A stretch of DNA of 33,319 nt from positions 1 to 33,319 of the forward strand of contig JAQXZD010000117.1 of NCBI GenBank assembly GCA_029227035.1, written 5' to 3'. Positions within the stretch are counted from its first letter, which is position 1, and the number at the start of each line of letters is the position of its first letter. A program made the translations under genes and the position numbers. Source of the stretch: Lachnospiraceae bacterium. GTDB taxonomy: Bacteria; Bacillota; Clostridia; Lachnospirales; Lachnospiraceae. The notes under the pieces were generated by a model, which did no database searches, was not told the DNA's origin, and was given only the letters and a program-made list of their open reading frames with translations. This document shows, one piece after another, positions 17,609-33,319 of the stretch.

Positions 17609-18691
17609 TTATCTGACTTTCCGGGCTACCTGTTCCGGATTTGCCGCATAACCCACCGCAACATCCGCGGTAATCCTGCCGCTTTGGCACAGGGCAATCA
17701 GGGATTGATCCATGGAAATCATTCCTTCCGACGCAGAAGTCTGAATCGCATTGTCAATCTGATAACTCTTATTGTCACGAATCATATTTTTGATTGCATT
17801 GTTCACATGCATAATTTCAAAAACAGGAATCATTTTTCCATCCACGCCGGGCACAAGCTGTTGCGAAACCACGGTGATAAGCACCGTCGCAAGCTGTGTG
17901 CGGATCTGCTCCTGCTGCTGGGATGGGAAGGAATCGATAATGCGGTCTATGGTATTGACCGCCCCTCTTGTGTGCAGCGTTGCCAACAGAAGGTGTCCGG
18001 TCTCTGCCGCAGTCATGGCAGTACGTATTGTCTCATAGTCACGCATCTCTCCAAGCTGAATGACATCCGGTGCCTGCCTGAGACATGCCCGCAACGCCGA
18101 CAGATAATCGTGGGTATCGATTGCAATCTCCCTCTGGCTGATCAACGATTTGTTGTTGCGATGCAGATACTCAATCGGATCCTCCAGCGTCACTATATGC
18201 GCCGACCGCTCCTGATTGATTTTGTCAATGATGCAGGCCTGGGTGGTAGACTTTCCGCTTCCCGCCGTACCGGAAAAAATCACCATGCCGTGCTGCTCCT
18301 TTGCGATTGCCATGACCTCATCCGGTATCTGCAGACTGTGATAATCCGGTATCTCAAACTGCACAATTCGGATGACCGCAGCCATGGAACCTCTCTGCCG
18401 GAATGCATTGACACGGAATCTGGCAAGTCCCATCCTCGCAAAGGAGAAGTCATCATCCCCTTCTGTCTCATATTTGTGCATATCCCGCTGTGCCATCGTA
18501 TAGATTGCCTGAATCAGTTCCTTGGTCTGATCCGGGAATACTTTTTCCTCGGAAATGCATTTGATCACGCCCTCCACCTTATAGCTTACCTGTCCTCCGG
18601 CAATGATGAAAAGATCCGAAGCTTTGTCTGCCACCGCTTTTTTCAAATATTCTTCCATCAACTGCTGATAATAACTGGTCTCAATTTCCAT
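17609..18691 (-). CDS. pilT: PilT-type type IV pilus ATPase
   Basis: Hexameric cytoplasmic ATPase of the retraction (PilT) family. The 360 residues include Walker A 'GTAGSGKST' at 141-149, the Asp box around 'VTLEDPIEY', Walker B 'QLGEMRD' at 212-218, the His box 'TGHLLLATLHT' at 231-241 and 'AIKNMIRD' at 299-306. The last is a version of the AIRNLIRE motif that marks PilT rather than the assembly ATPase PilB. It starts three bases after the preceding small gene, whose stop region provides the ribosome binding site. It is the only filament ATPase in the operon. Confidence 0.93.
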   Translation of the reverse strand: MEIETSYYQQLMEEYLKKAVADKASDLFIIAGGQVSYKVEGVIKCISEEKVFPDQTKELIQAIYTMAQRDMHKYETEGDDDFSFARMGLARFRVNAFRQRGSMAAVIRIVQFEIPDYHSLQIPDEVMAIAKEQHGMVIFSGTAGSGKSTTQACIIDKINQERSAHIVTLEDPIEYLHRNNKSLISQREIAIDTHDYLSALRACLRQAPDVIQLGEMRDYETIRTAMTAAETGHLLLATLHTRGAVNTIDRIIDSFPSQQQEQIRTQLATVLITVVSQQLVPGVDGKMIPVFEIMHVNNAIKNMIRDNKSYQIDNAIQTSASEGMISMDQSLIALCQSGRITADVAVGYAANPEQVARKVR

Positions 18692-18694
18692 CTT

Positions 18695-19105
18695 CTACTC
18701 CTCCATGAAATCGTCTACATCAAACAATTCCATATATTCTTCCGGCTCCCACCGGGTGGTCTCTTCCAGCTCCCACCGGTGCACCTTATATTCTTGTCCG
18801 GTGACTTCCACCACCACACTTAATACCTGTGTATCACTCACCGGACAACTGTATGCATAGAGATCTCCTTTTTGCACCACACCATCATCCACAATTCCGG
18901 CTCTGAGATTGCCGAGAATTCTCTCCGCCTCGCAGTCTGCCTGATAATAGGCCGTGACGGAATCATAGCTTTCCTCTGCCAGCCTCTCATCCGCCTTCAC
19001 CGTAGCCAGAACCAGCATGGAAAAAACCGTAAGACAGAGCACGGAAAAAATCACGAGAAGGGAACTTCCGCCCACCGGAGCCGGAACATTTGTCTTCTTA
19101 TTCAT
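18695..19105 (-). CDS. Small single-pass membrane protein, pilin-like (unidentified)
   Basis: I do not recognise a family. The 136 residues have a short polar start with 'VGGSSLL', one hydrophobic helix (about 14-36) and an extracytoplasmic domain with a Cys pair (about 58 and 87) and a very acidic C terminus ('YMELFDVDDFMEE'). This resembles PilX-type minor pilins that keep a long N-terminal helix. It overlaps the preceding gene by eight bases and lies between other pilin-like genes and pilT, which is the main reason to propose a filament role. Confidence 0.7.
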   Translation of the reverse strand: MNKKTNVPAPVGGSSLLVIFSVLCLTVFSMLVLATVKADERLAEESYDSVTAYYQADCEAERILGNLRAGIVDDGVVQKGDLYAYSCPVSDTQVLSVVVEVTGQEYKVHRWELEETTRWEPEEYMELFDVDDFMEE

Positions 19106-19535
19106 CCTCTACCTCCTGCCACGCAACTTCCATGGAAGAAATCTCTCTCCCGTTCTCTGCATCCGAAACCGTAATCTCTCCATAACTGCACAGTTTTCCG
19201 ATATCCTTTTGTACAAAAGAAGCCTCGAACCCTGCCTCTTCTTCCGCGGAGGCAGGATTCCAATCGGAATCGTAATACAGGATTATCCCATCCTCTTTTA
19301 CTTCTCCGCCAATCCTATCGCATACCGCATCCAAATCTCCATGGTATGCCTTTAGCGTCTCCGCAAGCGTCTGACTGACATTCATGGCATGATTTTCTTC
19401 CGACAAATGCACGGATATGCTTCTTGCTTTTACAAAAGCCTGTACACACAGTGCGGCTGCCAGTGCGAACACCAGCACCATAATCACCTGCTCCATCAAA
19501 ACCAGCGGAGCCTTGCTTTGCTTTTCCTGCATCAC
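19098..19535 (-). CDS. Minor pseudopilin-like membrane protein
   Basis: 145 residues: basic leader, then 'KAPLVLMEQVIMVLVFALAA'. This places a Glu five residues into a long hydrophobic helix, like the +5 Glu of type IV prepilins, although the usual Gly before the cleavage site is missing (Ala-Pro instead). The remainder is a soluble domain with beta-strand character ('GIILYYDSDWNPAS'). It overlaps both neighbours (ATGA-type overlap with the upstream gene). Function inferred from context and N terminus. Confidence 0.7.
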   Translation of the reverse strand: MMQEKQSKAPLVLMEQVIMVLVFALAAALCVQAFVKARSISVHLSEENHAMNVSQTLAETLKAYHGDLDAVCDRIGGEVKEDGIILYYDSDWNPASAEEEAGFEASFVQKDIGKLCSYGEITVSDAENGREISSMEVAWQEVEDE

Positions 19536-20053
19536 TTATCCTCCTGCCCGCTCCGCACAGCCATATTCAGGCTGCTTTCACTTCCATCTTCATTAGTGAC
19601 GGTAAAGGTGATCAGACTTCCCTCTTTTTGAATCTGAAGTCCTTTTGCCGCCAGTATCTCACTCCCGTCCTCCGGCGCAAGCCCACCGTCCTCCGCACAC
19701 AAAACTTCACGGATATATCCGTCATAATAGTAAATCTTCGTATAGAATCCCGGTACTTCTCCGTCCTCCCCGACAAACTGCAGATAGAGCGTATTCGTTT
19801 CATCCGCCCCGGCATCTGTCCTGTCCGAAAAGCTTCCCACAAATATATTGCCTGTACTGTCACTGTGCCGCAGTTTTGCCGCAAGATACTGTACGCCGGT
19901 TCTCTGATTGTAAGCAGCCCGGTCCCTCTCCACCAGTTTCTCATAGGAGGAAGCGCCAAACAGCAAAACCAGAAGAATACACCCGGCAAATACCGCAAAT
20001 AACAACAGCACATAGACACCATCCATATGATGCCTTGTTGTCTCTCTCTTCAT
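19532..20053 (-). CDS. Minor pseudopilin-like protein (possibly DUF4860 type)
   Basis: 173 residues with one N-terminal membrane helix (about 13-33), then 'YNQRTGVQYLAAKLRHSD' and a strand-rich domain with 'TLYLQF', 'YTKIYYYDGYIREVLC' and 'SLITFTVTNEDGS'. Such proteins accompany GspF and PilT in clostridial loci; I recall the name DUF4860 for a similar family but cannot verify it here. There is no Glu in the helix and no clear prepilin cleavage site. ATG follows a GGAAGTGGAA stretch 11 bases after the upstream gene. Confidence 0.68.
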   Translation of the reverse strand: MKRETTRHHMDGVYVLLLFAVFAGCILLVLLFGASSYEKLVERDRAAYNQRTGVQYLAAKLRHSDSTGNIFVGSFSDRTDAGADETNTLYLQFVGEDGEVPGFYTKIYYYDGYIREVLCAEDGGLAPEDGSEILAAKGLQIQKEGSLITFTVTNEDGSESSLNMAVRSGQEDK

Positions 20054-20064
20054 ATTCCACTTCC

Positions 20065-20400
20065 TTATTTACTGACAACCGTAATTTCCGGCATGACATT
20101 ATCCGCAAAAATCTCATAAAACACATCATACCTGTCATGATCAATCTGCAGACCGTAATGTTCTTCCATATAATCGATTGTGGCAGGATAACTGCCTTCT
20201 ATGGCATAACAGTTTAAGACCGCCTTCTGTATGCTGTCCTGCATCTGCTTTAAACTTTCCGCCTCCTGCCTGCTGCTGACGTTTCCTGCCGCCACCAGCA
20301 ATATGCCAGCCGCCGCAATCATACAAAACGGCATAACCAGATATTTCAGCAGCGTATCCAGTTTTCGCAAAAAATGTTTTCCCATGTTCTCATCCGTCAC
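20065..20400 (-). CDS. Small pilin-like membrane protein
   Basis: 111 residues: one hydrophobic helix (about 20-40), then an amphipathic stretch 'QMQDSIQKAVLNCYAIEGSYP', shown here as its first 20 residues plus one in the gene. The pattern 'CYAIEGSYPATIDYMEEHYGL' (residues about 69-89) strongly resembles the start of the globular part of pseudopilins, where 'A...EG.YP..L..L' is common. Start GTG (or an ATG five codons later), three bases after the GspF-like gene. Probably a filament subunit. Confidence 0.72.
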   Translation of the reverse strand: MTDENMGKHFLRKLDTLLKYLVMPFCMIAAAGILLVAAGNVSSRQEAESLKQMQDSIQKAVLNCYAIEGSYPATIDYMEEHYGLQIDHDRYDVFYEIFADNVMPEITVVSK

Positions 20401-20403
20401 TTT

Positions 20404-21450
20404 CTATCCGATGGATGCCATAATATTCATAAGCGGAATCATCACGGACAAAAGAATCACACCAACCAGAATGGAGGTGATAATCACGATTGTAGGCTCT
20501 ATCCTGGACACTGCCCCGTCAATGGTTCGCTCCGCATCCTCCTCAAGTCTTCCCGCAATCTCAACCATAATGTCATCCCCTGCACCGCTTTTTACACCAA
20601 GGGAAATCATTCTGCAGTACATTGCCGGAAAGATATCTGCCTTTTTCAGAGAATCCGCCAAAGGCTCACCCTGTTCCAGATTTTCCAGGCACTGTTCATA
20701 GCCGGCTCTCACCTTTCTGGAATCCTCATGGAAATCCATTGCGGTACGCATGGCATCTTCAATGGCAAGACCACTCATCATCCCCATGGAAAGAGCCGAA
20801 GCAAAACGCGCCATTCCCACTTTGCGAAAGACTCCCCTGTCTCCAAAGCAGCTTTTCAGCCATCCCGTCAGCTTTGCCCGAAGACCGTCGGAAAAATAGA
20901 GAACCAGAACAGCGACTGCAAAAATCCCCATCACAATGCCAAGTACCGGAAGCGCTGAAGACAGCACCTCTCCAAACCGCAGCAGGCCCGCCGCCATGCC
21001 TGTCATACTGCCACCGAGCTGTCTGTATACCGTATCAAAAATCGGGAGCACACGCACCAGCAGAATTCCAATAATCAAGAGCATCAGTATGAGTAAAATA
21101 ACCGGATACAAAATGGCGCTCCGGATACGCTCCGACAACTGCCTCTGCCTCTCATAATAATCGGCAAGTGCTTTAAATGCCGCTTCCGTGCGTCCGGTCT
21201 CCTCCCCGGTTCTCGCCATGTAAACCACATAATCCGGAAAACATCCGCTCTGTTCCATGGCATCCGACATCTGTAATCCATTATCCACCTGCTCACTCAT
21301 CCCCAGCAGAAGTTTCTTTGCCTGTGCATCCTCTTCGTCTTCTGCCAGCATCTGCAGTCCATCTCCTATGGAGATGCCTGCATGAAGCAGGAGGGAAACC
21401 TGCAGGCAGAATGCCGACAGATAATCATTGGATAAGTTCATTTTCTTCAT
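20404..21450 (-). CDS. pilC: GspF/PilC-type inner-membrane platform protein
   Basis: Platform protein of type II secretion or type IV filament machines, coupling the cytoplasmic ATPase to pilin movement. The 348 residues contain two GspF domains ('FCLQVSLLLHAGISIGDGL' and 'FASALSMGMMSGLAIEDAM'), each followed by the typical 'LEEDAERTIDG...EP' or 'ALADYYERQRQL' segment and hydrophobic helices; the final helix ends 'PLMNIMASIG'. The start chosen is ATG 21450 ('MKKMNLSNDYLSAF'); an upstream in-frame ATG at 21498 lies inside the terminator-like hairpin. It is the first gene of the filament-argS operon. Confidence 0.92.
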   Translation of the reverse strand: MKKMNLSNDYLSAFCLQVSLLLHAGISIGDGLQMLAEDEEDAQAKKLLLGMSEQVDNGLQMSDAMEQSGCFPDYVVYMARTGEETGRTEAAFKALADYYERQRQLSERIRSAILYPVILLILMLLIIGILLVRVLPIFDTVYRQLGGSMTGMAAGLLRFGEVLSSALPVLGIVMGIFAVAVLVLYFSDGLRAKLTGWLKSCFGDRGVFRKVGMARFASALSMGMMSGLAIEDAMRTAMDFHEDSRKVRAGYEQCLENLEQGEPLADSLKKADIFPAMYCRMISLGVKSGAGDDIMVEIAGRLEEDAERTIDGAVSRIEPTIVIITSILVGVILLSVMIPLMNIMASIG

Positions 21451-21474
21451 AGCTGTTCCATCCTTTGCCTGATT

Positions 21475-21504
21475 TAAAACAGGCCTGTGAAAAATCACAA
21501 GCCT
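21475..21504 (-). terminator. Terminator-like hairpin before the filament operon
   Basis: Positions 21481-21490 pair with 21495-21504 (10 bp with one G-U on the minus strand), followed by GTTTTAAA on the minus strand. It would stop transcription from the transglutaminase gene; the T-tract is short, so it may be leaky. Confidence 0.55.
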
Positions 21505-21705: not shown

Positions 21706-22593
21706 TTAATATGCATACTTTGCTTTATAATTGCTTCCGTCTCCGATATACTTCATTATCGAAGAACTGGAGTTGGAGGAAGATGCAAAAGTCGGATCCA
21801 TCCGGTTCCACTTCTCTCCGTCAAAATAGATGACATTGTCAATCCAGCCTTCCTTTTCGGAATATACGCTGATCCATGCATGATAAGCCGAGCCCGCATA
21901 ACCGATTACAAGCTTTGTCGGAACTCCCTGACTGCGAAGCATCGCCGTCATGGTAGCGGCATAGTCAAAGCAGATTCCCTTCTTTGACTTATATACGGAA
22001 TCCAGATTCGGCAGATATCCGCTTTCCACATTCTTTGCCTTCTTCTTGTCATACTTGAAATAATCAATGGTCCAGTTGTAGATTTTTTCGACCTTCTTCA
22101 TCTCTTTAGATGTATTCTTGCACAGAGACTTCGCCTTCTTCACACACTTGGTGCTTGAAGTATAATTTACAAACTGATTCGACATCAAAAACGGAGACTG
22201 CGCATCCTTGAGCTTCGCATTAAAACTCTGGGAAGCGGCGGTTGCATAGCTGTTGCCCGACACGTTCGTATACACCGTCACCTTATAATCCCCGTTTCCC
22301 TCTGAGAGCGGAAATGTTGCCCATTTCTTAGGCTTTATATTGTAAGTATATGTCACACCGGTTGGACACTTAACCTGTGCCTTCAGCTTTACCTTGGTGG
22401 ACTTCTTATACTTTACCATGACATATCCCTCCGTAATGTTGGAATAGTCAATGACCACCTGCGAGTTTTCCTGCACGCTCTTGCCGGAGGCTTTCGGGGT
22501 GATCACCTTTGCTTCCGTGCTCATGCCGCCTGCCAGGAAAATCAGACAGAATACCAGTATCAGAGCTGTCATTCTCTTGATTCTTTTTCCCAT
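21706..22593 (-). CDS. Secreted transglutaminase-like (papain-fold) protein
   Basis: A 295-residue protein with a signal peptide (about 1-28, ending 'MSTEAKV') , an N-terminal beta-rich region (about 30-130) and a C-terminal transglutaminase-like core. The likely triad is Cys208 in 'GICFDYAATM', His238 in 'YHAWISV' and Asp266 in 'RMDPTF'. Such domains in bacteria may act as proteases, crosslinkers or amidases; the substrate is unknown. Start chosen at ATG 22593 (after AAAGGAG); 20 upstream in-frame codons are less likely. It follows gtfB by 68 bases on the same strand, with its own probable promoter. Confidence 0.85.
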   Translation of the reverse strand: MGKRIKRMTALILVFCLIFLAGGMSTEAKVITPKASGKSVQENSQVVIDYSNITEGYVMVKYKKSTKVKLKAQVKCPTGVTYTYNIKPKKWATFPLSEGNGDYKVTVYTNVSGNSYATAASQSFNAKLKDAQSPFLMSNQFVNYTSSTKCVKKAKSLCKNTSKEMKKVEKIYNWTIDYFKYDKKKAKNVESGYLPNLDSVYKSKKGICFDYAATMTAMLRSQGVPTKLVIGYAGSAYHAWISVYSEKEGWIDNVIYFDGEKWNRMDPTFASSSNSSSSIMKYIGDGSNYKAKYAY

Positions 22594-22643
22594 AAAGTCT
22601 CCTTTCCGGCCTTGCGCCATTGCATTTTTCTCCACTTTTTTAC

Positions 22644-22672
22644 AGTATAACACGTTTTTCTTTATCTGAAAA
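22644..22672 (-). promoter_or_regulatory. Possible promoter of the transglutaminase-like gene
   Basis: Minus strand: TTTTCA (22667-22672), 17-bp spacer, TATACT (22644-22649), straddling the gtfB stop codon. The -35 is only fair. Confidence 0.42.
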
Positions 22673-24008
22673 GGGAAATTTGCTCCTCCGCCATGGCCTC
22701 TTTCCGCTGCATTTCCAGATGCTTCTCCATAAGATGATTATCTTCCAGAATGGCACGGATGTCCTCCAGCATACGGTCTGAATCTGCTGCCGGATAGATA
22801 TGCTCCGATGCCGTATACTCCCTCCTGTGCGCCGTCTCTTCAAAGGCAAATATGAGCTGATTCTGCAAAAATGCACGCCGGAGTGCCGACACAATTTCCC
22901 CATAATGATTGATGTCAAAGTACCAGTCACAGCGCTCAAACAGCCGGTCCAGAAAATTCATTTTCACATTCGGATACAGCGTAACATTGTCGTATTCTCC
23001 CATTGCCATAAGCTTGGAAGACATCTCCGTGAGCGCCGCAATGTGAAAATGCAACATCGGCAAAGCCTCTATAACCTTCCGGCACTGTTCAATGTTATCG
23101 GAATTCGTACAGATCAGTGCCTCTCGTCCATGCCTGTTCTCCCGCTCAAAAGGATACAGATATCCCTGCAGATGCAAAACCTCCGGATTTGCTCCAAGCT
23201 CCAGAAGCTTCTCGTATGCCGCGCGGTTCTGTACCATAACGGCTCCGGTACCGCTTCTTTTTTCCAGAATCCCTACCATATTTCCCGGAATATCCTCCCG
23301 CTTTGGCTCCTGCCAGAACAGTACATGGTTCCTGTCCGGATTCCGTAACCTCTCCGAGACGAAAAACGAAGTGGACAGCGTATTGAAAAAAATCCGCTGA
23401 TTTTCCAATCCCGCAGCCTTTAACGCATAGACGGCAAAATCCGTTTTGTTGTTAAAAATGCGCACCTTGTCCCCGTCATTTAAGATAATGTCATTCGTTA
23501 CATAATTTTCGACAATCTTTTCCTGTCCCTCTGCCGAAAAATAGGTTTTGGTAACCTTCTGTCCCTTTTCATTAAAAACCGTTCTTGCATACAGTGCCCC
23601 ACAGGAATTGTAGTGATCGCTGGAACGCACGACGCCTCTCTCGTCCAGCCAGTCCACCACCTTCACCAGCCGCTTATTCTTCGGTTCCGTATAGAAAATT
23701 CTGCCCCTTTCACGGTAGAGGTCATACACCTGCGCCTGCGTATTGTTGCCTTTAATCTCCCAGTAATCCGGCACAGGTATCTGATTGAAATACCGCGGTC
23801 TTCCAAAGGAATCCGGTGCATTTTTATAATCTCCCAGGAAATAATCATATACGGATTTTGCACCCTCCGGCAAAAATCCCTCATCCTCCAATATCACTGT
23901 ATGAAATTTCTGTCCGGACAGGAGAAAGGAAGTATAAAGCTTCCGGCTTTCCTCCGAAAAATTGTCCATCAGGAGCAGGAAGTCATTTCCTGCAACAGAT
24001 TTTTCCAT
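22662..24008 (-). CDS. gtfB: Accessory Sec glycosylation partner GtfB
   Basis: Non-catalytic or weakly catalytic partner that binds the serine-rich acceptor and, with GtfA, forms the O-GlcNAc transferase for SRR adhesins. The 448 residues start near 'ESRKLYTSFLLSGQKFHT' and carry 'VILEDEGFLPEGAKSVYDYF', an N-terminal pattern of the GtfB family, and end in a GT-B-like half ('YDNVTLYPNVKMNFLDRLFE', 'CDWYFDINHYGEIVSALRRA'). ATG 24008 has GAGGAGG and overlaps gtfA by 40 bases. It is last in the aSec operon; no asp4 or asp5 follows. Confidence 0.9.
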   Translation of the reverse strand: MEKSVAGNDFLLLMDNFSEESRKLYTSFLLSGQKFHTVILEDEGFLPEGAKSVYDYFLGDYKNAPDSFGRPRYFNQIPVPDYWEIKGNNTQAQVYDLYRERGRIFYTEPKNKRLVKVVDWLDERGVVRSSDHYNSCGALYARTVFNEKGQKVTKTYFSAEGQEKIVENYVTNDIILNDGDKVRIFNNKTDFAVYALKAAGLENQRIFFNTLSTSFFVSERLRNPDRNHVLFWQEPKREDIPGNMVGILEKRSGTGAVMVQNRAAYEKLLELGANPEVLHLQGYLYPFERENRHGREALICTNSDNIEQCRKVIEALPMLHFHIAALTEMSSKLMAMGEYDNVTLYPNVKMNFLDRLFERCDWYFDINHYGEIVSALRRAFLQNQLIFAFEETAHRREYTASEHIYPAADSDRMLEDIRAILEDNHLMEKHLEMQRKEAMAEEQISLFR

Positions 24009-25477
24009 TGATTCTCCACCTCCTCTGTCAGATACCGCTCTGCAATCCGGTATGAGTGTTCACAAAAAGCTTCCAGATCTGCCTCCGTAAACAGCCGCAC
24101 TATGGCTTCCGCAAGTTTGCCAATACGCAGTTTGGAATCCATCTCACTGCCCGCTTCAATCAGGTATCCGTTCTTTCCGTCTTCGATAAAAGTCTGGTTT
24201 CCATAGCGCACATCAAAACCAATAATGGGAAGTCCCGAGCCTGCCGCCTCTAAAAGTGTCAGCCCGAAGCCTTCGCTGGTGGAACCGGACAGATATGCCT
24301 CATAGCCTGCATAAACCTCTGCCAGATTCTGCTGTCCGCATAAACGCACATAGTCCGTACACCGCAGACGTCTGATCTGTTTTTGCAGTCTTTCTTCCTC
24401 TCCACCTTTTCCGTAAATGTCCAGTGTCAGATCCGGAATCTGTTTTCTCGCTTCACAGACCGCTGCAACCAGCCAGTCCACGTGCTTTTCCGAGGCAAGT
24501 CTGGATGCTGTAATCAAAGCATGCTTTTTCCGCCCATTCTTCGGATACACCAGTCGGTCCAGACTGCCCACCGGAATCGTTACAACACACGGCGTAATCC
24601 CATAATACTTCTGAAACTGTTCCCTGAGCAGCGTGTTCTGCGCGTCGGTTGCCGTCACATAAAACGCCACGCGCCTGTGCTGCGAAAATGCATACTCATA
24701 ATAATTGTTCCAAAGGATATTGACTTCATCCGTACTGCCCTCACTGAAGTGATCCGCATGGATAACGATTCCGATTTTGGCAGATCCTGCATTCTGCATG
24801 ATTGCCTGCCCGATTCCGGTGGTGCGGTCAATCAAAACCACATCTTGCTCCGTCAGGGCAAGCTTCGACACCATATATCCCACCAGCTCTTCCTTCGAGC
24901 AGATCAATCGATCCGGAAACTGATACATCACCACATCATTATCATTGATTTCTTCATATGCCACGGTTCCGTCTTCATTGAAAAAGCGGCGCTGGTACAG
25001 ATGCGCCCTGCCGTCCAGCGGTGCATAATATTCCGCATAAATGCGGCAGTAGGTATAGTAATCCTTCCGGATTAATTTTCCTCTCGATACAATTTCCACC
25101 CGGTGCACCAGATTGCTTTTTTCGTCTGTCAGATAAACCATGTAGAAAATGTCTTCTTCCGAAAATTCATACTTTGCCTTATTTCCCTGCCGCGTAAACG
25201 TATATTTCCGGTCCGAAAACTGTTTTTCAAGGTCTTTTAAAGAAAAAGAAACCGGTGCAATCTTACAGTCCGAAAAAAAAGTATAGAGCCACAAAACCTC
25301 CGAATCCAGGAAACCGATATTCTTTGTCATATGTTCAATGTTTTCCTGCGGAAACATATCCGTAAACACAAATTTTGCATCCTGTCCGATTCTTCTTAAA
25401 ATATTCGCCCGGTATGCCTGTGCATATTCCACTCCGCTGGATGCCCAGCCGATTCCAAGATTAAAATTGTAGACCAT
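23969..25477 (-). CDS. gtfA: Accessory Sec glycosyltransferase GtfA
   Basis: Catalytic GT4-type subunit that adds the first N-acetylglucosamine to Ser/Thr of the SRR adhesin in the cytosol. The 502 residues begin with the family hallmark 'YNFNLGIGWASSGVEYAQAY', continue with a beta-meander acceptor-binding domain (about 80-190), and end in the UDP-sugar-binding half with 'SRLASEKHVDWLVAAV', 'SEGFGLTLLEAAGSGLPIIG' and 'FIEDGKNGYLI'. ATG 25477 is chosen over GTG 25483 because homologues start close to it and AAAGGG sits at fitting distance. It starts 26 bases after secA2. Confidence 0.93.
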   Translation of the reverse strand: MVYNFNLGIGWASSGVEYAQAYRANILRRIGQDAKFVFTDMFPQENIEHMTKNIGFLDSEVLWLYTFFSDCKIAPVSFSLKDLEKQFSDRKYTFTRQGNKAKYEFSEEDIFYMVYLTDEKSNLVHRVEIVSRGKLIRKDYYTYCRIYAEYYAPLDGRAHLYQRRFFNEDGTVAYEEINDNDVVMYQFPDRLICSKEELVGYMVSKLALTEQDVVLIDRTTGIGQAIMQNAGSAKIGIVIHADHFSEGSTDEVNILWNNYYEYAFSQHRRVAFYVTATDAQNTLLREQFQKYYGITPCVVTIPVGSLDRLVYPKNGRKKHALITASRLASEKHVDWLVAAVCEARKQIPDLTLDIYGKGGEEERLQKQIRRLRCTDYVRLCGQQNLAEVYAGYEAYLSGSTSEGFGLTLLEAAGSGLPIIGFDVRYGNQTFIEDGKNGYLIEAGSEMDSKLRIGKLAEAIVRLFTEADLEAFCEHSYRIAERYLTEEVENQWKNLLQEMTSCS

Positions 25478-25503
25478 TTTCACCCTTTCCTTCCTCTTAC
25501 ATG

Positions 25504-27837
25504 TTATGGCAGCACCACCTGAATCTTTCCTTCCCCATCCACGAAAACACTGCTTAAAAGTACATTTCGCACAATTTCTCTTCGAATTGTCTGCTCCATA
25601 TCACGAAAGGATTCCAGCGCCTCCTTCTGGTACTCATATACCGGATTCCGCTGTGCCGAACTTCTTCCCATTACCGCCGACTGGAGCTGCTGCAAATAAT
25701 CCACCTGCTCCACCCATGCATCATCAATTGCCGTCAGTATGGCTTTTCTGATAAAACCGTTCATCACATCTTCCACCTTGAAGGATCTGGACTTTTTATA
25801 TAATTCATCCCATGCGCGTTTCTCAAGATACACTTCCACATCCTTTTTCCGTTTGAGATTTACGCTTCCGTCCGTATCCTTCAGTTCATAGGAGATATTA
25901 TCCAGAATATAACGGTTTATATCTGCCTGTGTCAATTCCTTTTTCTCCGTGACGAACTGCCGGATATTGCTCTTTGCCATCTCCAGAATTGTGGTTCTGT
26001 TAATAATTTTTCCATCCAGCAGACTGTTACGCATCGCATACATAAGCTCCCGCTGCTTTTGGAGTACCTGATCATACTCCACCGCCTGCTTTCTTGCCAT
26101 GACTGCGAATTCTTCCCCGACCCGCTGCGCCTCATCAATGATTTTCCTTTGCCTGCGCGGGCTCAGCTTCTTTTTCCCATCCAGATATTCTTCCAGATTG
26201 GACGGACCGTTCATCTGCACCACATCATCATAAAGCGAAACGTAAAAGCGGCTGAATCCCGGATCTCCCTGTCTGCCTGCCCTGCCTCGCACCTGACGCT
26301 CCTGTCTTACATTCTCCATGCGTCCGATTCCGATCACCGCCAGACCTCCAAGCTCCTTGACGCCCTCTCCCAGCTTGATATCCGTTCCTCGTCCCGCCAT
26401 GGAGGTTGCAACCGTTACCGCATTCCTCTGCCCGGCTTCGCTGATGATTTCCGCCTCCCAGAACACATTGTTGGCATTCAGTACATTGTGCGGAATCTTT
26501 TCTTCCAGCAGAAGTCTCGACATAATCTCCGTCTCCGCAATGGTCGACACCACAATCAAAACCGGCTGCCCCGTGCCGTGAATCCGCAGGACTTCCTCTA
26601 GCGCATCCTGAAACAGATCTACCCGGTCACTGTAATAATGATCCGGAAAATCCTTTCTCTGTACTGGGTAATTCGGAGGTATGACTATGACCTTTGCCCC
26701 ATATACCTCACGCAGCTCCTCGCTGGCATCCGATATGGTTCCGCTCATCCCAGACATCTTCTCAAAAAGCATAAACAGATTCTTGTAAGTGATGGATGCC
26801 ATCGAACGGTTCTCCATAGTAGGCTGCATTCTCTCCTTGACTTCCAGTGCCTGATGCTGTCCTCCCCTTAACTTCACTCCCGGGAGCATGCGTCCGGAAC
26901 TGTTGTCCAGAAGCACCAGTTCCCCGTTCCCGGAAATCATATAATCTCTCTCCCGTTCAAAGAGCGTATGCGCCCGAAGCGCCAGTATCACATGACGGTT
27001 AATCTCGAAGTATTTTTTTCCATAAAAATTGTCAATCCTGAAAAATTCCTCGGCACGTTTTACGCCATCTTCCGTAAGCCAGACTTTTTTATCCTCCACC
27101 ACATAGTCAAGTTCTTCCTCCAGCGTGGTCACAAAGAAATCCGCAAGCTCATAGAGGTTCGACTGGACACGCGGCGCACCGGATATCACAAGAGGCGTCT
27201 GTGCCGCATCCAGAAGCACCGAATCCGCCTCGTCAATAATCACAAAATAAAGCTCCCGCAGAAAGCGCTCCTCCGCCGTCTTGACCAGATTATTCAAAAG
27301 GTAATCAAAACCGAACACTCCATGAGTGGTGTAGACAATATCCGAATCGTATATTTCCTTTTTCTCTGCGTTTGTAAACCGCTTATCCGCCTGTTTACTG
27401 ACACCTGCCGCAACGGTGAGTCCCATGAACCGGTATACCTGTCCCATCTCCTCACAGTCTCGGAGTGCCAGATATTCATTGGTGGTCATAAGAATCGTAC
27501 TTTTTCCGGTCAGTGCATTCAGATACAGAGGCATCGTTGCCACCAGTGTCTTTCCCTCGCCCGTATTCATTTCTGCCAGATACCCCTGATGAAGCGCAAT
27601 CGCACCAAGCACCTGCACATCATACGGAAATTTTCCAAGAATCCGGTAATCCGCCTCACAGACTGCCGCATATGCCTCCGGCAGCATATGATTCAGCTTC
27701 TCTCCCTTTTTCAGTCTTTCCTTAAATTCTACCGTCAGATGTGTCAATTGCTCATCCGTCAGTGCACGCATTCTGTCTTTGTGTTTTCTGACCTTACGAA
27801 GGATTCTATTCAGTTGTTTGATCTTTTTTGTCTGCAT
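25504..27837 (-). CDS. secA2: Accessory Sec translocase ATPase SecA2
   Basis: Motor ATPase dedicated to export of the glycosylated SRR adhesin. At 777 residues it is shorter than housekeeping SecA and lacks the C-terminal zinc-binding Cys motif, as usual for SecA2. Seen: 'AEMNTGEGKTLVATMP' (Walker A, 93-97), 'GFDYLLNN', 'VIIDEADSVLLDAAQTPL' (Walker B, 202-205), 'ATSMAGRGTDIKLG' and 'QVRGRAGRQGDPG'. The ATG overlaps the end of asp3 by 32 bases. The neighbours secY2, asp1-3, gtfA and gtfB define the SecA2-SecY2 type. Confidence 0.96.
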   Translation of the reverse strand: MQTKKIKQLNRILRKVRKHKDRMRALTDEQLTHLTVEFKERLKKGEKLNHMLPEAYAAVCEADYRILGKFPYDVQVLGAIALHQGYLAEMNTGEGKTLVATMPLYLNALTGKSTILMTTNEYLALRDCEEMGQVYRFMGLTVAAGVSKQADKRFTNAEKKEIYDSDIVYTTHGVFGFDYLLNNLVKTAEERFLRELYFVIIDEADSVLLDAAQTPLVISGAPRVQSNLYELADFFVTTLEEELDYVVEDKKVWLTEDGVKRAEEFFRIDNFYGKKYFEINRHVILALRAHTLFERERDYMISGNGELVLLDNSSGRMLPGVKLRGGQHQALEVKERMQPTMENRSMASITYKNLFMLFEKMSGMSGTISDASEELREVYGAKVIVIPPNYPVQRKDFPDHYYSDRVDLFQDALEEVLRIHGTGQPVLIVVSTIAETEIMSRLLLEEKIPHNVLNANNVFWEAEIISEAGQRNAVTVATSMAGRGTDIKLGEGVKELGGLAVIGIGRMENVRQERQVRGRAGRQGDPGFSRFYVSLYDDVVQMNGPSNLEEYLDGKKKLSPRRQRKIIDEAQRVGEEFAVMARKQAVEYDQVLQKQRELMYAMRNSLLDGKIINRTTILEMAKSNIRQFVTEKKELTQADINRYILDNISYELKDTDGSVNLKRKKDVEVYLEKRAWDELYKKSRSFKVEDVMNGFIRKAILTAIDDAWVEQVDYLQQLQSAVMGRSSAQRNPVYEYQKEALESFRDMEQTIRREIVRNVLLSSVFVDGEGKIQVVLP

Positions 27838-28270
27838 CTTCGTCCGTCATCTCCCAAATCACCATAGAATGAAAATGAAACTCCGTCACGCCGCCATTGA
27901 TAAGCTGAATCTCATAACTGTATGTCTTAAGGGGACACTGAAAATCCGTGACCCGGTCACGAATATTCAGATATCCCGCTTCATTCCCATACCGGTCATA
28001 AAACACAAGCCGCACCAGACAATGCTGTCCCTTTGGCACATCCATGTGGATGGAAAGCCGGTATCTGCTCTCTCCGTCTATCATCGGAAGCGCCGGTTCG
28101 ATATGCTGCATCTGAAAATTTGTCTTGGAATACCATCTCTTAATTATGGTTCCGGCCGGCATTCTGCTGTTTTTAAATTCAACATCCTCCGCATCATGAA
28201 AAATCACCTTGGAACCGTACAAATAAGTATCCGAGCAATACTCACTCCAACCAATCTTCCAATTTGCCAT
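27806..28270 (-). CDS. asp3: Accessory Sec protein Asp3
   Basis: 154-residue soluble protein; in streptococci Asp3 joins Asp1 and Asp2 in a complex that guides the adhesin to SecA2 at the membrane. Seen are the small beta-sandwich features 'YLYGSKVIFHDAEDVEFKN', 'LVRLVFYDRYGNEAG' and 'TYSYEIQLINGGVTEFHFHS', typical of Asp3. Its ATG comes immediately after the asp2 stop codon, and its 3' end overlaps secA2. It is weakly conserved in sequence, and position in the operon strongly supports the call. Confidence 0.9.
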   Translation of the reverse strand: MANWKIGWSEYCSDTYLYGSKVIFHDAEDVEFKNSRMPAGTIIKRWYSKTNFQMQHIEPALPMIDGESRYRLSIHMDVPKGQHCLVRLVFYDRYGNEAGYLNIRDRVTDFQCPLKTYSYEIQLINGGVTEFHFHSMVIWEMTDEDADKKDQTTE

Positions 28271-29776
28271 CTACTCTGTATCCTTTCTGTTATAGTCGTT
28301 CTCAAGAACCATATGATACTGATTGACAAACCATCTGACAATCTCCTGCGTATTATCATTATGCCTTCCGTGAATGCCCTTTCCATATATCTGCGCGCCA
28401 TCGGATTGCAGATGAGTCAGAAACATGTCATAGGCATCTGTATCGTAATCATCCTCCAGCATATAGGCAATGATAAATTTTGTTCTTCCCCAGTCACAAG
28501 AATCAAATTTGTCCCAGAACCTCTCATTCAGCCGCCGGACTGCATCATCATCCATGCCGCCCCCTTCTCTTTGCAGCACATCCAGAGAAGTCGGAAATCC
28601 GCCGGGACGCAGATACTGTTCATTTGCGGAAACATTTCCGATACTTGCCAGCGGCTTTCCCAGAATAATTGCATGAGGCCTGATATCACAGCCATAATAT
28701 ACCGCAGCGGTGGAACCCATGGAAAGTCCCGATAAAATCACCTGCTCCGAGCTAAAATTCAGTTTTTTCATATATTTTTTCAGGATGTCCGCAAGAAGCT
28801 TCTCATACTCCGCAGAACCCAGATAAAAGCTTCCGCCCTCCAGCCTTGCTTCCGAAATCAGCAGAAACGGACAACCCATTTTCCGCATCATATTGTATCC
28901 TTCGAAGCCTTCCATGGTCTTATAGCCGGAAAAATAGACATTCAGCGGTGGCTTTCTGTCACCCGGATCAAAATAGGCAAAGATTTCTTCCCTCTTTGAA
29001 GTGACATAACGAACCCCACCCGGCAGGAAATGTCCGTGGCTTCCTCTGGAATAACGGTCATGAAGCGCAATAATCCGAAGCTTTCCCTCGCCCTTTGCGC
29101 TGATGGAAGCAAAAATCGGTCCGTCTCCATGATTTCCCTCAATATGCACCACCTGCTCAAGCTGTGTTTCGTCAAATCTCCAATGATTAATTACCTTTGA
29201 GAGACTTCCCGATTGCAGTTGCGTAATTTCCAGCTCTATCTCCACATTCGCATCTTTCTGATACTCCAGCCATAAATCAATCATCTGGTTTTTTCTGACC
29301 GGTATATTATTTCGCCAGAAAGCAATCTGCTTCATTTCGCTGCCGAAATCTCCTTCCAGATTCACGGCATAATTGCCGTCCCACCAGACCGTTCCCCGAA
29401 AGCTTTGCGCCAGTTCCAGATTCTTCAGATTGTATTTTTCTCCGTAAGAAGCAGGAAAATAAAAGCGAAGCTCCTGCGACAAAAATTTCTGCATCTGCTC
29501 TTCCGGTATGATTTTTCCGTAACAGCACCCGCACAATTCCCGCAGTCTGTCCGTAAATTCCACATTCTCCGTAAGAAACAACGTGTATGCTTTCGTCACC
29601 TGCCGCAGGGGCTCATACTCATCCTCCATAGGCTGCCTGCCAATAAAAACCGCATCATAAGGATTCCCATCGGTTTCCTTAAAATGCCTTGCATAAATCC
29701 ACTCTGCTTCCTTTGGAATCACATAGCGATTATTCCAGTCTTCAGTTCCCAACTGTAATACACGAATCTTATCCAA
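28271..29776 (-). CDS. asp2: Accessory Sec protein Asp2, putative glycan O-acetyltransferase
   Basis: Asp2 is required for adhesin export and also O-acetylates GlcNAc on the adhesin. The 501 residues have a beta-rich N-terminal half and an alpha/beta-hydrolase C-terminal half. The nucleophile motif 'GLSMGS' places Ser at 352; 'YMLEDDYD' (Glu441) and 'HGRHND' (His472) can complete the triad, with the Glu-His spacing close to that of the S. gordonii enzyme (as I recall it). So the enzyme is probably active. The start is TTG 29774-29776, overlapping the asp1 stop; the ribosome binding site is weak, so translation is probably coupled. Confidence 0.93.
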   Translation of the reverse strand: MDKIRVLQLGTEDWNNRYVIPKEAEWIYARHFKETDGNPYDAVFIGRQPMEDEYEPLRQVTKAYTLFLTENVEFTDRLRELCGCCYGKIIPEEQMQKFLSQELRFYFPASYGEKYNLKNLELAQSFRGTVWWDGNYAVNLEGDFGSEMKQIAFWRNNIPVRKNQMIDLWLEYQKDANVEIELEITQLQSGSLSKVINHWRFDETQLEQVVHIEGNHGDGPIFASISAKGEGKLRIIALHDRYSRGSHGHFLPGGVRYVTSKREEIFAYFDPGDRKPPLNVYFSGYKTMEGFEGYNMMRKMGCPFLLISEARLEGGSFYLGSAEYEKLLADILKKYMKKLNFSSEQVILSGLSMGSTAAVYYGCDIRPHAIILGKPLASIGNVSANEQYLRPGGFPTSLDVLQREGGGMDDDAVRRLNERFWDKFDSCDWGRTKFIIAYMLEDDYDTDAYDMFLTHLQSDGAQIYGKGIHGRHNDNTQEIVRWFVNQYHMVLENDYNRKDTE

Positions 29777-31304
29777 CGAACTCTATAACCTCTCTCCATT
29801 TATCCAACAGTACACTTGTCGTAAATCTCTTTCCTATCTCGTAAGAAGCCACCACTGCCTGATTCCAGTTGGCCAGACCGTCCAGATAATAATCCAGAAA
29901 CTGCGGAAGCTGTGCCGTGTTTTTTAAAACCCTTCCGTTCTTTCCATCCTCAATAAACTGGGTTTCCCTGCATACAATCTGCGGTATTCCCATACTGATT
30001 GCCGTAATCTGCAGATACAGTTCCGGAAGCTTACGCAGATCCACAAGCAGTATCTGTTCCCTCATGCATTTGCTTACCGTAAGTTCATCCACACACTGTT
30101 CTGCGAAAAATCGTGACGCAAGCTTTCCCGGAAGCCTCTCCGCTTTAAGAGCACTTGCCGTTCTGCTTAAAATCTGCTCCGGACGGTCATACTCCGCTTT
30201 TCTGGTAAGCAGATGCACCTCTGCCCTGTTGTTTTTCAACAGATACTTTCCAAGCTGAACCACCAGCTCCACAAAACCGTCATCCTCGATTCCATCCACC
30301 GCTACCAGAATCTTCTGCACACTGAGCTGTCTGCTGATTCCCGGATCCACTCTGGAATCATAAGGGGTAATATCCATGATCTTATGTGCGAGTGTTCTGT
30401 CCATCTCCACAATCGCTTTTGTGTTCTCCTGCGAATCTGTAATGATATAGTTTGCCTCTCTTATCATTCCCATCACTTCCGGATGCTCCGTGATGCGATA
30501 ACGATCCATGTAAAAAGAGAGAATTGTCTTTCTCTGCATCATGATTTTTTCTATAAAATGCACATGCAGCCCATGCATGGCAACACAGAAGATATCCTTC
30601 TCCTCCGTGAGCCGCACATAAGAAAGAAATACCTCTTCAATGACCTCCTCCAGACAATCATAGTCCAGTCTGGAAAAACGTTTCTTCTGTTCTTCGTCAC
30701 CGTAACTGAGCAGATAATCCGGATACTTTGGATTAATCTCCACATGTCCGTCAGATTCGAAATACCGAAGTTTCCAGACTCCATTCTCCATCAGATAATC
30801 CCGATACACCGGTTTTCCGTCTTCATAAATGACGGTGGCAGACACAAAACCTCTGTCATCATAAATATTTCGCCTGCATATCTGTTCATCCTGATACATA
30901 TCAATACGAATCAGATTGCCGTCCTCACCAAATTCAAGCTGCGCATATTTCTTTCCCCTGCGCATCGCCACCACCACAAAGGGCGTATACAAATACTCAA
31001 TATCCTCCGGCCAGGTCAGACTGTGAAACGAAAAAACACGCACTTTTCTTCTTTGTATCTCCTGAATCGCATCAAAACACGACCAGTATGGTGCATGGTA
31101 AACGCTCTGCCGGTGCAGAAAATGTCTGAAATTCGGTGCATGTCCCAAAAGCAGAATACGATAAGGGCTGAATTGGCTTCTGTGAAACAACTGCATATGC
31201 TTCACTGTATCGTCAAACTCCGTGTGCATTCTCCGCTCCTGCCAGCTCTGCTCCCGTTCACTCCATTCATTTTCCCGATACCACGCCGGAACAAAATAAA
31301 CCAT
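29769..31304 (-). CDS. asp1: Accessory Sec protein Asp1
   Basis: Asp1 has a glycosyltransferase-like GT-B fold without known activity and forms the Asp1-3 complex. The 511 residues start 'MVYFVPAWYRENEWS', characteristic of Asp1, and have 'QFIEDGKNGRVL' near the C terminus, the same motif as in GtfA, consistent with descent from a glycosyltransferase. ATG 31304 follows AGGAG, 11 bases after secY2. Confidence 0.94.
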   Translation of the reverse strand: MVYFVPAWYRENEWSEREQSWQERRMHTEFDDTVKHMQLFHRSQFSPYRILLLGHAPNFRHFLHRQSVYHAPYWSCFDAIQEIQRRKVRVFSFHSLTWPEDIEYLYTPFVVVAMRRGKKYAQLEFGEDGNLIRIDMYQDEQICRRNIYDDRGFVSATVIYEDGKPVYRDYLMENGVWKLRYFESDGHVEINPKYPDYLLSYGDEEQKKRFSRLDYDCLEEVIEEVFLSYVRLTEEKDIFCVAMHGLHVHFIEKIMMQRKTILSFYMDRYRITEHPEVMGMIREANYIITDSQENTKAIVEMDRTLAHKIMDITPYDSRVDPGISRQLSVQKILVAVDGIEDDGFVELVVQLGKYLLKNNRAEVHLLTRKAEYDRPEQILSRTASALKAERLPGKLASRFFAEQCVDELTVSKCMREQILLVDLRKLPELYLQITAISMGIPQIVCRETQFIEDGKNGRVLKNTAQLPQFLDYYLDGLANWNQAVVASYEIGKRFTTSVLLDKWREVIEFVG

Positions 31305-31315
31305 AATACTGTCTC

Positions 31316-32521
31316 CTATATAAACATCCGGTATGAATCAAAACTTTTTATCGCCTGATATTCCCTGCCCAACGTACACCACATACCGGTCAAAAGCATC
31401 ATTGAGGACGGAAGCATCACCAGAGTTGACTCCATACTGCCCCGGTACTGAAGCAGAAGAGGCACCCCGAGACACATGCTCATAATCGTCGCGCTGAAGA
31501 AACTGATAATACAAAGTTTTCCCGCCAGATATCTTCTGGTATCCCTTCCTGCATGAATATTCAGCAGACAGTCTCCACTTTTCAAAAACTGCTCCGTAAG
31601 CTCCTTCGGATTTACCAGAATAAAGGAAAAAACAATCGTCAAAACATAGATAATCCCTATATATACTCCGATTCCAAGCGGCTTTGTCAGTACCATATTT
31701 TCATTCCACCAGGCTATCCTTTCACTTCCCGGAAACAGCATTGCCAAGCCTGTTCCGATAAGTTGCGGCAACATAAAAAATGCCGTGGAGAACATCACCG
31801 GCATCGTACCGATCGGGTTTAACTTGATTGCCAGATAATTCTTATCCGCATAAATATTATGTATGGAAATTCTCTGCAGCGGGATACGAAATTCCGCATT
31901 CTCCATAAATACAATTACCAAAACAACCGCCGCTGAGATCACGAGCGGAAGCCCCATCTCTTTTAAGGTATGTCCCTGCAAAGTTGCAACAATTCCGTCA
32001 ATGATATTCATATAAATAAGTGCCGTCTGCCCGCCGATTCCATACTTTCTGTTTCTCTCCGAAAGCCACAGAATAATCATAACGCCGGTCACCATCTGCA
32101 AAACGGTAATCCCCTGCGCCAACAGAAGCTCTTTTCCGACTGCCTTATATTCCAGTTCCCGCACATGAAAAGCTGCCTGAATTACGGCAATAAGCAAGGT
32201 TCCGGCAAGGATCATTTTGTTCATTTTTTGCATGGACACCCGTTCATTTGTCCCTGCTTTTTTGTATGCAGCATACACCTGTATAAATATCGAGGACAGC
32301 ATATACGGAGAAACTCCAATTGCAAACAGGGAATACCGGTAAGTATCTCCCCCGATAATCTGCATCAGAAGATCCTCTGCACTGATAGTCTTATCTATGT
32401 ATGCCGCTGTATCAATGCCGTACAGAGGAATCTCCCTTCCCGCCAGATACAGAAGCAAAATCAAAAAAGTATATAAAAGTTTATATTTTACGATACTGGT
32501 CTTTTTTTCCAACTTACTCAA
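31316..32521 (-). CDS. secY2: Accessory Sec channel SecY2
   Basis: Dedicated translocation channel for the SRR adhesin. The 401 residues show about ten membrane helices and SecY family features: 'YLAGREIPLYGID' at the first helix, 'IFIQVYAAYKKAG', 'GIGGQTALIYMNIIDGI', 'NPIGTMPVMFSTAFFMLPQ' and the terminal helices. It is shorter than SecY1 and has reduced cytoplasmic loops, as for SecY2. The start is TTG 32519-32521 with only a weak GAGAG upstream; an in-frame TGA shortly upstream limits other choices. It follows the adhesin gene by 65 bases. Confidence 0.95.
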   Translation of the reverse strand: MSKLEKKTSIVKYKLLYTFLILLLYLAGREIPLYGIDTAAYIDKTISAEDLLMQIIGGDTYRYSLFAIGVSPYMLSSIFIQVYAAYKKAGTNERVSMQKMNKMILAGTLLIAVIQAAFHVRELEYKAVGKELLLAQGITVLQMVTGVMIILWLSERNRKYGIGGQTALIYMNIIDGIVATLQGHTLKEMGLPLVISAAVVLVIVFMENAEFRIPLQRISIHNIYADKNYLAIKLNPIGTMPVMFSTAFFMLPQLIGTGLAMLFPGSERIAWWNENMVLTKPLGIGVYIGIIYVLTIVFSFILVNPKELTEQFLKSGDCLLNIHAGRDTRRYLAGKLCIISFFSATIMSMCLGVPLLLQYRGSMESTLVMLPSSMMLLTGMWCTLGREYQAIKSFDSYRMFI

Positions 32522-32542
32522 ATCTGTTCTCTCTCATACAAA

Positions 32543-32578
32543 GGAATGACCACCTCATCCGAAGCGGCCATTTCCATT
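32543..32578 (-). terminator. Hairpin between adhesin gene and secY2, possible leaky terminator
   Basis: GGAATGACCA (32543-32552) pairs with GGCCATTTCC (32566-32575), nine pairs with one bulge and one G-U, with a loop of about 13 nt. On the minus strand it is followed by TTTGTATG, a poor T-tract. It may lower secY2-asp-secA2 expression relative to the abundant adhesin, or protect the adhesin mRNA end. Confidence 0.42.
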
Positions 32579-32586
32579 TTCATCTT

Positions 32587-33319
32587 TTATTTTTCAGTGG
32601 AGTCATCTTTCTTCTTTTTCTTTCTTCCTGCTCCAAACAGACCTGCCACGGCTGCAATTGCCGTTCCTGCCCATGTCAGCGGAAGCGTGTCTCCTGTCTC
32701 CGGATTGCCTGATAACGGAACATCCTCATCCTCTATGTCTACCGTTTCCTCCGGATCGGTCACCGCAAGCGGTACCGGTGGTTCATCAATATCTACAAGT
32801 TCCTCTTCTTCCGGCGCATCCGTTGTTGGAACATCCTCATCCGGGATATCCGTTGTCGGAACATCCTCATCCGGAATTTCTATCGTCTCACTGGTGCTGG
32901 AGCTGTTCGAAGTACTGGTACTCTCACTGGTACTTTCGCTCGAATAACTCGTGCTGCGGCTGGTACTGTTCGAAGTGCTGGTGCTACCGCTGTTTGAGGT
33001 ACTATTTGATGCGCTCCTGCTCTCACTGCTTGATGCACTCTGACTCTGACTTGTACTTGCCGATGTACTCTGGCTCGTTGAAGTGCTCTGACTTAAACTT
33101 GTACTCGTTGATTCACTTTCACTGCTTGAAATGCTCTCGCTCACACTTGTACTCGTCGATTCACTTTCACTTGCTGATACGCTCTCGCTTACACTTGTGC
33201 TCGTCGATTCACTCTCACTGACGCTCGTACTCGTTGATTCACTTTCACTGCTTGAAATACTCTCGCTCACACTTGCACTGGTCGATTCACTCTCACTTAC
33301 GCTCGTACTCGTTGATTCA
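32587..33319 (-). CDS. Serine-rich repeat (SRR) surface adhesin, C-terminal part (5'-partial)
   Basis: Cell-wall glycoprotein that is the presumed cargo of the neighbouring aSec system. The frame runs open through the right edge, so the signal peptide and binding domain are not visible; the GTG at 33270 is an internal codon. The 244 visible codons contain about 140 residues of Ser/Thr/Glu repeats ('SESESTSTSVSE' units), a duplicated acidic linker ('IPDEDVPTTD' twice), 'VDIEDEDVPLSG', and the wall anchor NPETGD, followed by a hydrophobic helix and a basic tail 'GRKKKKKDDSTEK'. The motif has Asn in place of the Leu of LPXTG. Confidence 0.93.
   Translation of the reverse strand, partial: ESTSTSVSESESTSASVSESISSSESESTSTSVSESESTSTSVSESVSASESESTSTSVSESISSSESESTSTSLSQSTSTSQSTSASTSQSQSASSSESRSASNSTSNSGSTSTSNSTSRSTSYSSESTSESTSTSNSSSTSETIEIPDEDVPTTDIPDEDVPTTDAPEEEELVDIDEPPVPLAVTDPEETVDIEDEDVPLSGNPETGDTLPLTWAGTAIAAVAGLFGAGRKKKKKDDSTEK
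32822..32881 (-). repeat. Tandem 30-bp duplication encoding the acidic linker
   Basis: Two adjacent 30-bp copies share 'ggaacatcctcatccgg' and encode 'IPDEDVPTTD'-like decapeptides just before the wall-anchor region of the adhesin. Confidence 0.8.
32890..33319 (-). repeat. Ser-rich coding repeats of the adhesin
   Basis: Short degenerate units of about 12-36 bp encode 'STSVSESE'-like peptides, most regular at 33100-33319, where units such as 'ctcgttgattcactttcact' recur, and degenerate towards 32890. They continue beyond the right edge, so the total length is unknown and such arrays are often misassembled. Confidence 0.85.

Follow-up and report, generated by a model that had tools for sequence, protein, structure and literature searches.

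The stretch of DNA analysed here (the window) is the whole of contig G000:C117, 33319 bases long, from a Lachnospiraceae genome assembly of 2.40 Mb in 121 contigs (85.6% complete, 2.6% contamination). Its minus strand carries at positions 22662-33319, from the right end inward, genes for a serine-rich repeat (SRR) adhesin, SecY2, Asp1, Asp2, Asp3, SecA2, GtfA and GtfB. With a probability of roughly 0.87, this is an accessory Sec (aSec) locus of the working SecA2/SecY2 type that belongs to a distinct branch of gut anaerobes. The aSec systems and SRR adhesins have been studied in Bacilli. The value of the present locus is that it points to a horizontally moving branch in gut anaerobes whose adhesins carry different signals.

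Machinery genes and the linked adhesin

We identified the products of the locus from NCBIfam bit scores relative to the curated cut-offs and from Pfam. Asp1 (29769-31304; 412 bits for a cut-off of 136.1), Asp2 (28271-29776; TIGR03712, 526.9 bits for 210.75) and Asp3 (27806-28270; 126.7 bits for 67.25) all exceed the thresholds of their families and are linked in the window. The same holds for the export motor ATPase SecA2 (25504-27837; TIGR03714, 1000.3 bits for 930), the O-linked N-acetylglucosamine (GlcNAc) transferase GtfA (23969-25483; 716.4 bits for 574.6) and the glycosylation chaperone GtfB (22662-24008; 495 bits for 338.3), the last of which has no Pfam match. Solved homologues were matched for Asp1, Asp2, GtfA and GtfB, and the two Gtf proteins align over most of their length with the solved pair 5e9t (chain A for GtfA) and 5e9u (chain B for GtfB). 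The accessory translocon channel SecY2 (31316-32521) was assigned from sub-threshold NCBIfam matches and a tree of 34 sequences, in which it and 18 other SecY2 proteins separate from 15 housekeeping SecY proteins with a support of 100. Similarly, the SecA tree places the SecA2 of the window and 31 other accessory SecA2 proteins apart from 17 housekeeping SecA proteins (support 100). Thus, both proteins group with their accessory counterparts, and the families that a preliminary description of the window had named from motifs are borne out by curated models and trees for all seven machinery proteins.

The seven machinery frames are all open and of full length, and their key motifs are intact. 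SecA2 has GEGKT at residue 93 and DEAD at residue 202. Asp2 harbours Ser352 (in SGLSMG), a run of acidic residues (E441/D442/D443) and His472, all within motifs that the solved homologues 6lnw and 6oyc also have. They correspond, by motif and without a direct alignment to the Streptococcus gordonii protein, to the catalytic triad of S. gordonii Asp2, given in the portion of the source consulted as Ser362, Asp/Glu452 and His482, with position 452 printed both ways (PMC5578698).

The order secY2-asp1-asp2-asp3-secA2-gtfA-gtfB, with an adhesin frame upstream, is also that of the staphylococcal sraP-type loci of Staphylococcus epidermidis (NZ_CP121525.1) and Staphylococcus chromogenes (NZ_CP046029.1). 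The order had been described as the same in streptococci and staphylococci, and for the machinery genes it does match these two annotated staphylococcal records. The streptococcal systems of the GspB/Fap1 type (solved chains 5vae, 5e9t, 6lnw and 6oyc) share Asp1-3, SecA2, SecY2, GtfA, GtfB and the catalytic motifs of Asp2 with the window. However, from secY2 through gtfB adjacent genes overlap or lie at most about 20 bases apart, and there is therefore no room in the window operon for asp4 and asp5, which the part of the literature consulted includes in the S. gordonii system (PMC5076819). Nor did we recognise any further glycosyltransferase beside the locus on the contig. A 12-pair terminator-like hairpin detected by pattern match at 32545-32572 (minus strand), between the adhesin stop codon and the secY2 start, is a possible attenuator.

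The adhesin is present as a C-terminal fragment of 243 residues (32587-33318), identified from its sequence features and LPXTG models. Serine makes up 52% of the 146-residue repeat part, and the fragment closes with NPETG, a hydrophobic stretch and KKKKK; repeated acidic-VPLx motifs are also present. The anchor is thus an LPXTG-like sorting motif of the usual kind, with 18.2 bits for LPXTG_anchor (cut-off 15.9) and 39.4 bits for LPXTG_double, below its cut-off of 48. Matches of the fragment to the MSCRAMM ClfA/Sdr models were far below the cut-offs and were set aside as reflecting the serine repeats. The SRR substrate linked to GtfA and GtfB is seen from its C-terminal part alone, so that the locus, which had been called complete, has its seven machinery genes in the expected place and order but an adhesin without its N-terminus.

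By analogy with S. gordonii and other studied species, the locus most likely functions in the manner of other aSec systems. In the cytoplasm, GtfA, held by GtfB, would attach GlcNAc to the serine-rich repeats, and SecA2 with Asp1-3 would then deliver the glycosylated adhesin to the channel SecY2. Asp2 would O-acetylate the GlcNAc during export. A sortase could finally fix the adhesin via NPETG, with the long stalk carrying the binding region outward.

A gut-anaerobe branch that has spread horizontally

We built a bootstrapped tree from concatenated SecY2, Asp1, Asp2, Asp3 and SecA2 (33 rows, 2355 columns); Lactobacillus and named Streptococcus had no row in the trees. The 28 gut-anaerobe rows, including the window, separate with a support of 100/100 from the five others, namely two staphylococci, Enterococcus, Lactococcus and G582, a genome of another family that we take to be a member of the Bacilli. 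The window Asp2 is 45-61% identical to those of 12 other relatives aligned, 36% to that of G582 and 34-42% to copies on Bacilli plasmids. The Bacilli sampled are not a recent source of the window locus. Either side of the split between gut and non-gut rows may be the ancestral one.

Within the gut branch, the rows of the host genus stand in four places, and constraining them to one clade was rejected (p 6.6e-6), as was a single clade of Lachnospiraceae (p 1.5e-44). In the SecA tree, the five host-genus rows sampled come together for housekeeping SecA (SecA1). Between the window and its genus mates, SecA1 is 85-93% identical and SecA2 57-71%, the reverse of the pattern between families. The Lachnospiraceae genome G238 shares 56% of SecA1 and 78% of SecA2 residues with Pseudoramibacter, and 51% and 69%, respectively, with Olsenella (Actinomycetota). 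Holdemanella, which nests in the gut branch, provides weaker evidence of transfer (52% for SecA1 and 56% for SecA2 with the window). The branch also occurs in named isolates of these three other families: Olsenella porci (L123), Pseudoramibacter porci (L117) and Holdemanella porci (L113). As SecA2 identity exceeds SecA1 identity across families and phyla and the host-genus rows are scattered, horizontal transfer has carried the aSec module between gut anaerobes.

To follow its distribution, we used Asp2 (TIGR03712) above cut-off as the marker of aSec in genome samples. It occurs in 10/295 genomes of the order sample (4/130 genera, including the window genome) and in 9/62 species of the host genus (4/30 of the good-quality genomes, again counting the window genome). 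In Pseudobutyrivibrio (genus g10), 28/29 genomes have it, including 21/21 of good quality. The class sample yielded 2/391, the window genome and one of Pseudobutyrivibrio, and the phylum sample 2/398, the window genome and G582. Thus, aSec is rare outside particular genera of the Lachnospiraceae. A metagenome study, in the portion consulted, calls Asp1-3 Streptococcus-specific (PMC7676259); with Asp2 in nearly every Pseudobutyrivibrio species sampled and scattered in others, such marker calls can therefore mislead. The text consulted of a 2019 survey of gut SRR proteins (SRRPs) names Lactobacillales and does not contain 'clostridi' or 'lachnospir' (PMC6973325). In the open-licence literature, as far as its accessible parts go, the one description of aSec in Lachnospiraceae that we found is a clause mentioning 'accessory Sec system proteins' of Pseudobutyrivibrio (PMC6912079); earlier reports may exist.

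A scan of 84,980 species genomes returned 385 stretches with the gene pattern, 330 of which encode an Asp2 relative of any branch. The best 80 of these 330, all at least 49% identical to the window Asp2 and hence biased towards its kin, were taken as relatives. Of the 80, 49 have the order secY2-asp1-asp2, and 42 of these keep it through all seven genes. In 13 loci asp2 precedes secY2, and the remaining 18 could not be judged. The 13 loci with asp2 ahead (13/62 of those judgeable) are all in records named Pseudobutyrivibrio, and in some of them several kilobases with further adhesin genes separate asp2 from secY2. One locus in a record of that name (L094) has the usual gene order and groups elsewhere. 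The Pseudobutyrivibrio systems are of the same gut branch as the window, with features of their own: asp2 ahead of secY2 and apart from asp1 and asp3, and often a sortase gene before the adhesin. A metagenome-assembled genome, ERR6760081_bin.35, contains two aSec loci (L086 and L128) that fall in separate parts of the gut branch, a pairing that may be real or a product of binning.

Two host-genus genomes (G694 and G745; loci L240 and L242, respectively) have extra genes ahead of the adhesin, including GtfA/GtfB-like paralogues. One extra gene of L242 encodes a glycosyltransferase family 2 (GT2) domain. Other proteins encoded there appear to resemble the start motif of Nss/Gtf3, with no Pfam match in L240.

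We weighed several other explanations of the locus. The machinery order shared with staphylococci and the presence of aSec on Bacilli plasmids (16 records) would fit a clostridium having recently acquired its aSec island from streptococci, staphylococci or lactobacilli, but the fully supported split of the gut rows from the five others, the lower Asp2 identities to G582 and the plasmid copies and a G+C content that is even across the parts of the window (43-49%), with no signature of foreign origin, make this the least probable of all. Purely vertical inheritance within Lachnospiraceae followed by many losses is improbable as well, if somewhat less so. It would account for the near-universal presence in Pseudobutyrivibrio, the three rows of which form one clade, but not for host-genus rows in four places of a tree when SecA1 unites the five sampled; ancient duplication and loss may explain part of the scatter within the genus, but not the reversal between SecA1 and SecA2. 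Of the two origins proposed earlier, old inheritance or transfer from Bacilli, descent stands in part and a recent Bacilli source is disfavoured: the locus appears to have been partly kept by descent, as in Pseudobutyrivibrio, and partly exchanged, as in the host genus and outside Lachnospiraceae.

An artefact is also conceivable. The fragmentation and incompleteness of the host assembly could suggest that the locus lies on a misassembled or contaminant contig, and in the near relatives G730 and G732 the corresponding block is not followed by argS or spoIIIA within the stretches read. However, G732 has the same gtfB-transglutaminase-pilus block as the window, housekeeping SecA also places these two genomes closest (91% for G732 and 93% for G730), and the even G+C content argues likewise, so that we regard such an error as very unlikely. 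Slightly less likely still is that the locus is a decayed or non-functional remnant. The incomplete adhesin might be taken that way, but the seven other frames are intact, and the break occurs at the contig end, inside repeats. Because the adhesin frames of G730 and G732 likewise run off contig ends, the repeats most likely caused the truncation during assembly.

Other observations count against a working aSec locus of the gut branch as we describe it. SecY2 scores below the cut-offs of both NCBIfam models, narrowly for TIGR02920 (245.5 for 249.6 bits) and clearly for PRK12417 (272.8 for 353 bits). The adhesin is incomplete, its N-terminus being cut at the contig end, and its start was not found elsewhere in the 85.6%-complete genome: a profile of 14 signal-peptide rows from relatives gave a single match (E 0.887), which we took as chance. 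The trees used LG+G4 without a mixture model, 14/33 rows are of unusual composition, and the rest of aSec is represented by five rows, one of which (G582) is a long branch. Finally, the preliminary description had made a second secA and secY in the genome a test of its assignment. A housekeeping SecA is present, but a housekeeping SecY was not found in the incomplete assembly. A 3.9-kb secY stretch of a near relative, carrying frames that by eye resemble rpsE, adk and map, had no match in the window genome either, in a search run without a positive control that shows little. Since 15/15 relatives tested have one SecY and one SecY2 each and the genome is incomplete, the missing gene probably falls in an assembly gap.

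Signals and anchors of gut-branch adhesins

We analysed the starts of 38 serine-rich frames of gut-branch relatives, each open on its N side. None of them has the KxYKxGKxW motif, although three of the frames counted do not begin at a true start: one is a wrong frame, one is a run of N and one has its start cut off. In contrast, three of four Bacilli controls have KxYKxGKxW or YKSGKxW, and the staphylococcal sraP-type adhesins, the loci of which are on a separate tree branch from the window, have KLYKxGKxW signals. After a first, too strict regular expression (7 hits) had been replaced, a glycine-core signal was matched in 32/38 frames, and three more matches were recognised by eye (L131:11691, L146:11749 and L146:14230). 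The expression matched 0/4 Bacilli controls, yet these show GG in a hydrophobic stretch, and it does not measure features common to the two groups.

Fourteen aligned starts gave the consensus MxKKKVxxxLKGxAAAGxAxGGASxxxDANVVYAAEL, with two invariant glycines. With start codons picked by eye, these signals measure 32-49 residues to the YAAE-type site. An upstream stop codon holds the longest possible signal below 55 residues in eight of the 14; in the other six (L077, L121, L126, L140, L242 and L243), a longer signal is possible. The Lactobacillus reuteri SRRP/aSec system has in common with the gut branch the use of SRR adhesins by a gut commensal. It differs by its signals: in the portion consulted, the 2019 review reports SRRP signals of 55-101 residues, typically about 90, in proteins that also have an AST domain and are anchored by LPXTG (PMC6973325). 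The gut branch provides a natural test of which signal part routes cargo to SecA2/SecY2, as the relatives analysed keep a glycine core and lack KxYKxGKxW. In work attributed to Bensing in 2007, glycines in the hydrophobic core of GspB reportedly have this routing role.

The C-terminal ends were filtered for at least four K/R in the last 15 residues, and 17 loci were then viewed unfiltered. Among 55 distinct filtered non-Bacilli ends, NPxTG is present in three (G730, G732 and L144), and 50 carry PLx somewhere in their final 130 residues without a real xPxTG, two of them having matched that pattern solely via VPLAG; the last two ends have neither NPxTG nor PLx. PLx is a loose pattern that NPxTG ends carry too. 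The 50 PLx ends mostly show acidic residues before PLA or PLG, an often Trp-rich hydrophobic stretch and a basic tail. L083, removed by the filter, has LPGTG. A third kind of end was seen in seven of the 17 unfiltered loci (L117, L123, L125, L129, L138, L142 and the variant L140): these proteins finish with VPLQV (VVLQV in L140), without hydrophobic tail or LPXTG and with no evident mode of attachment.

A sortase-domain gene lies one gene from the NPETG adhesin of L144. A related class-B-like sortase (with TLSTC and YGHN) is encoded ahead of an SRR adhesin with acidic-PLx motifs but no LPXTG in eight Pseudobutyrivibrio loci (L087, L109, L111, L121, L131, L135, L146 and L147); six others with the region in view are without it (L096, L098, L104, L106, L107 and L120), and adhesins of both groups have similar tails. 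A non-LPXTG sorting signal in gut-branch adhesins is plausible from these sequence patterns. No Pfam domain scored above cut-off in the adhesins of seven relatives. A binding region common to Pseudobutyrivibrio, Lachnospiraceae L077 and Schaedlerella adhesins (L077 30% and Schaedlerella 27% identical to the first row) gave an AlphaFold model too weak to interpret, with a mean predicted local distance difference test (pLDDT) score of 63.2 and a predicted template modelling (pTM) score of 0.42.

A broader proposal would make the gut branch a second great branch of aSec. Its adhesins would have short signals in which a GxxxGxxxGG-like core alone routes them to SecA2/SecY2, and would be attached by an acidic PLx motif and hydrophobic tail, partly via the linked class-B-like sortase. 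The module would have spread between families and phyla, and would sometimes lie beside a transglutaminase/pilus cluster acting on the same fibre. We consider this proposal as a whole tentative and rather unlikely. As the window anchor is of the usual kind and its signal was not seen, the window is an ordinary member, and the claim of a variant rests on its branch.

Neighbouring genes and the host genome

Directly downstream of gtfB is a gene for a transglutaminase-like protein, probably secreted (21706-22653, minus strand; assigned by its domain and by comparison of neighbours), which we do not count as part of the aSec locus. It is followed by a type IV pilus-like cluster (17609-21498, minus strand) with domain matches for a PilT-family ATPase, a DUF4860 protein and a T2SSF protein, along with small proteins. 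We viewed 85 loci, 36 of which include gtfB followed by 3 kb or more of sequence. A related transglutaminase gene is present there in 6/36 (L069, L084, L101, L127, L144 and L148), for a chance expectation of about 0.1 of 36 if a 3-Mb genome holds two copies, both figures being assumed. At least one copy occurs in 22/62 host-genus genomes at E 1e-20. The six tree rows labelled with this link need five changes, and in G730 the link probably runs via a second adhesin split across two contigs. A related cluster on C118, elsewhere in the window genome, has no aSec within the surrounding 16 kb that were read. The transglutaminase neighbourhood may be functional or may be a shared hot spot for surface genes.

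That the host is Lachnospiraceae-like agrees with most of the nearest records, which bear that family name. Genes for SpoIIIAA, AB, AD, AE and AG are found at 11.8-15.7 kb of the window and end about 7 kb from gtfB, not about 12 kb as first described. All five products are under the NCBI cut-offs, while SpoIIIAA and SpoIIIAE pass those of Pfam. The idea of an endospore-forming host is therefore backed as far as the presence of spore genes goes.

A third SecA_DEAD match in the genome was discarded as not being a SecA; judged by eye, its sequence is RecG-like. At 5988-7133 (minus strand), the window codes for a BspA-type leucine-rich repeat protein between recX/recA and an RNase Y gene. Another gene (857-2710, minus strand) joins a large-subunit domain of [FeFe] hydrogenase to the signalling domain of methyl-accepting chemotaxis proteins, and its product may sense hydrogen.

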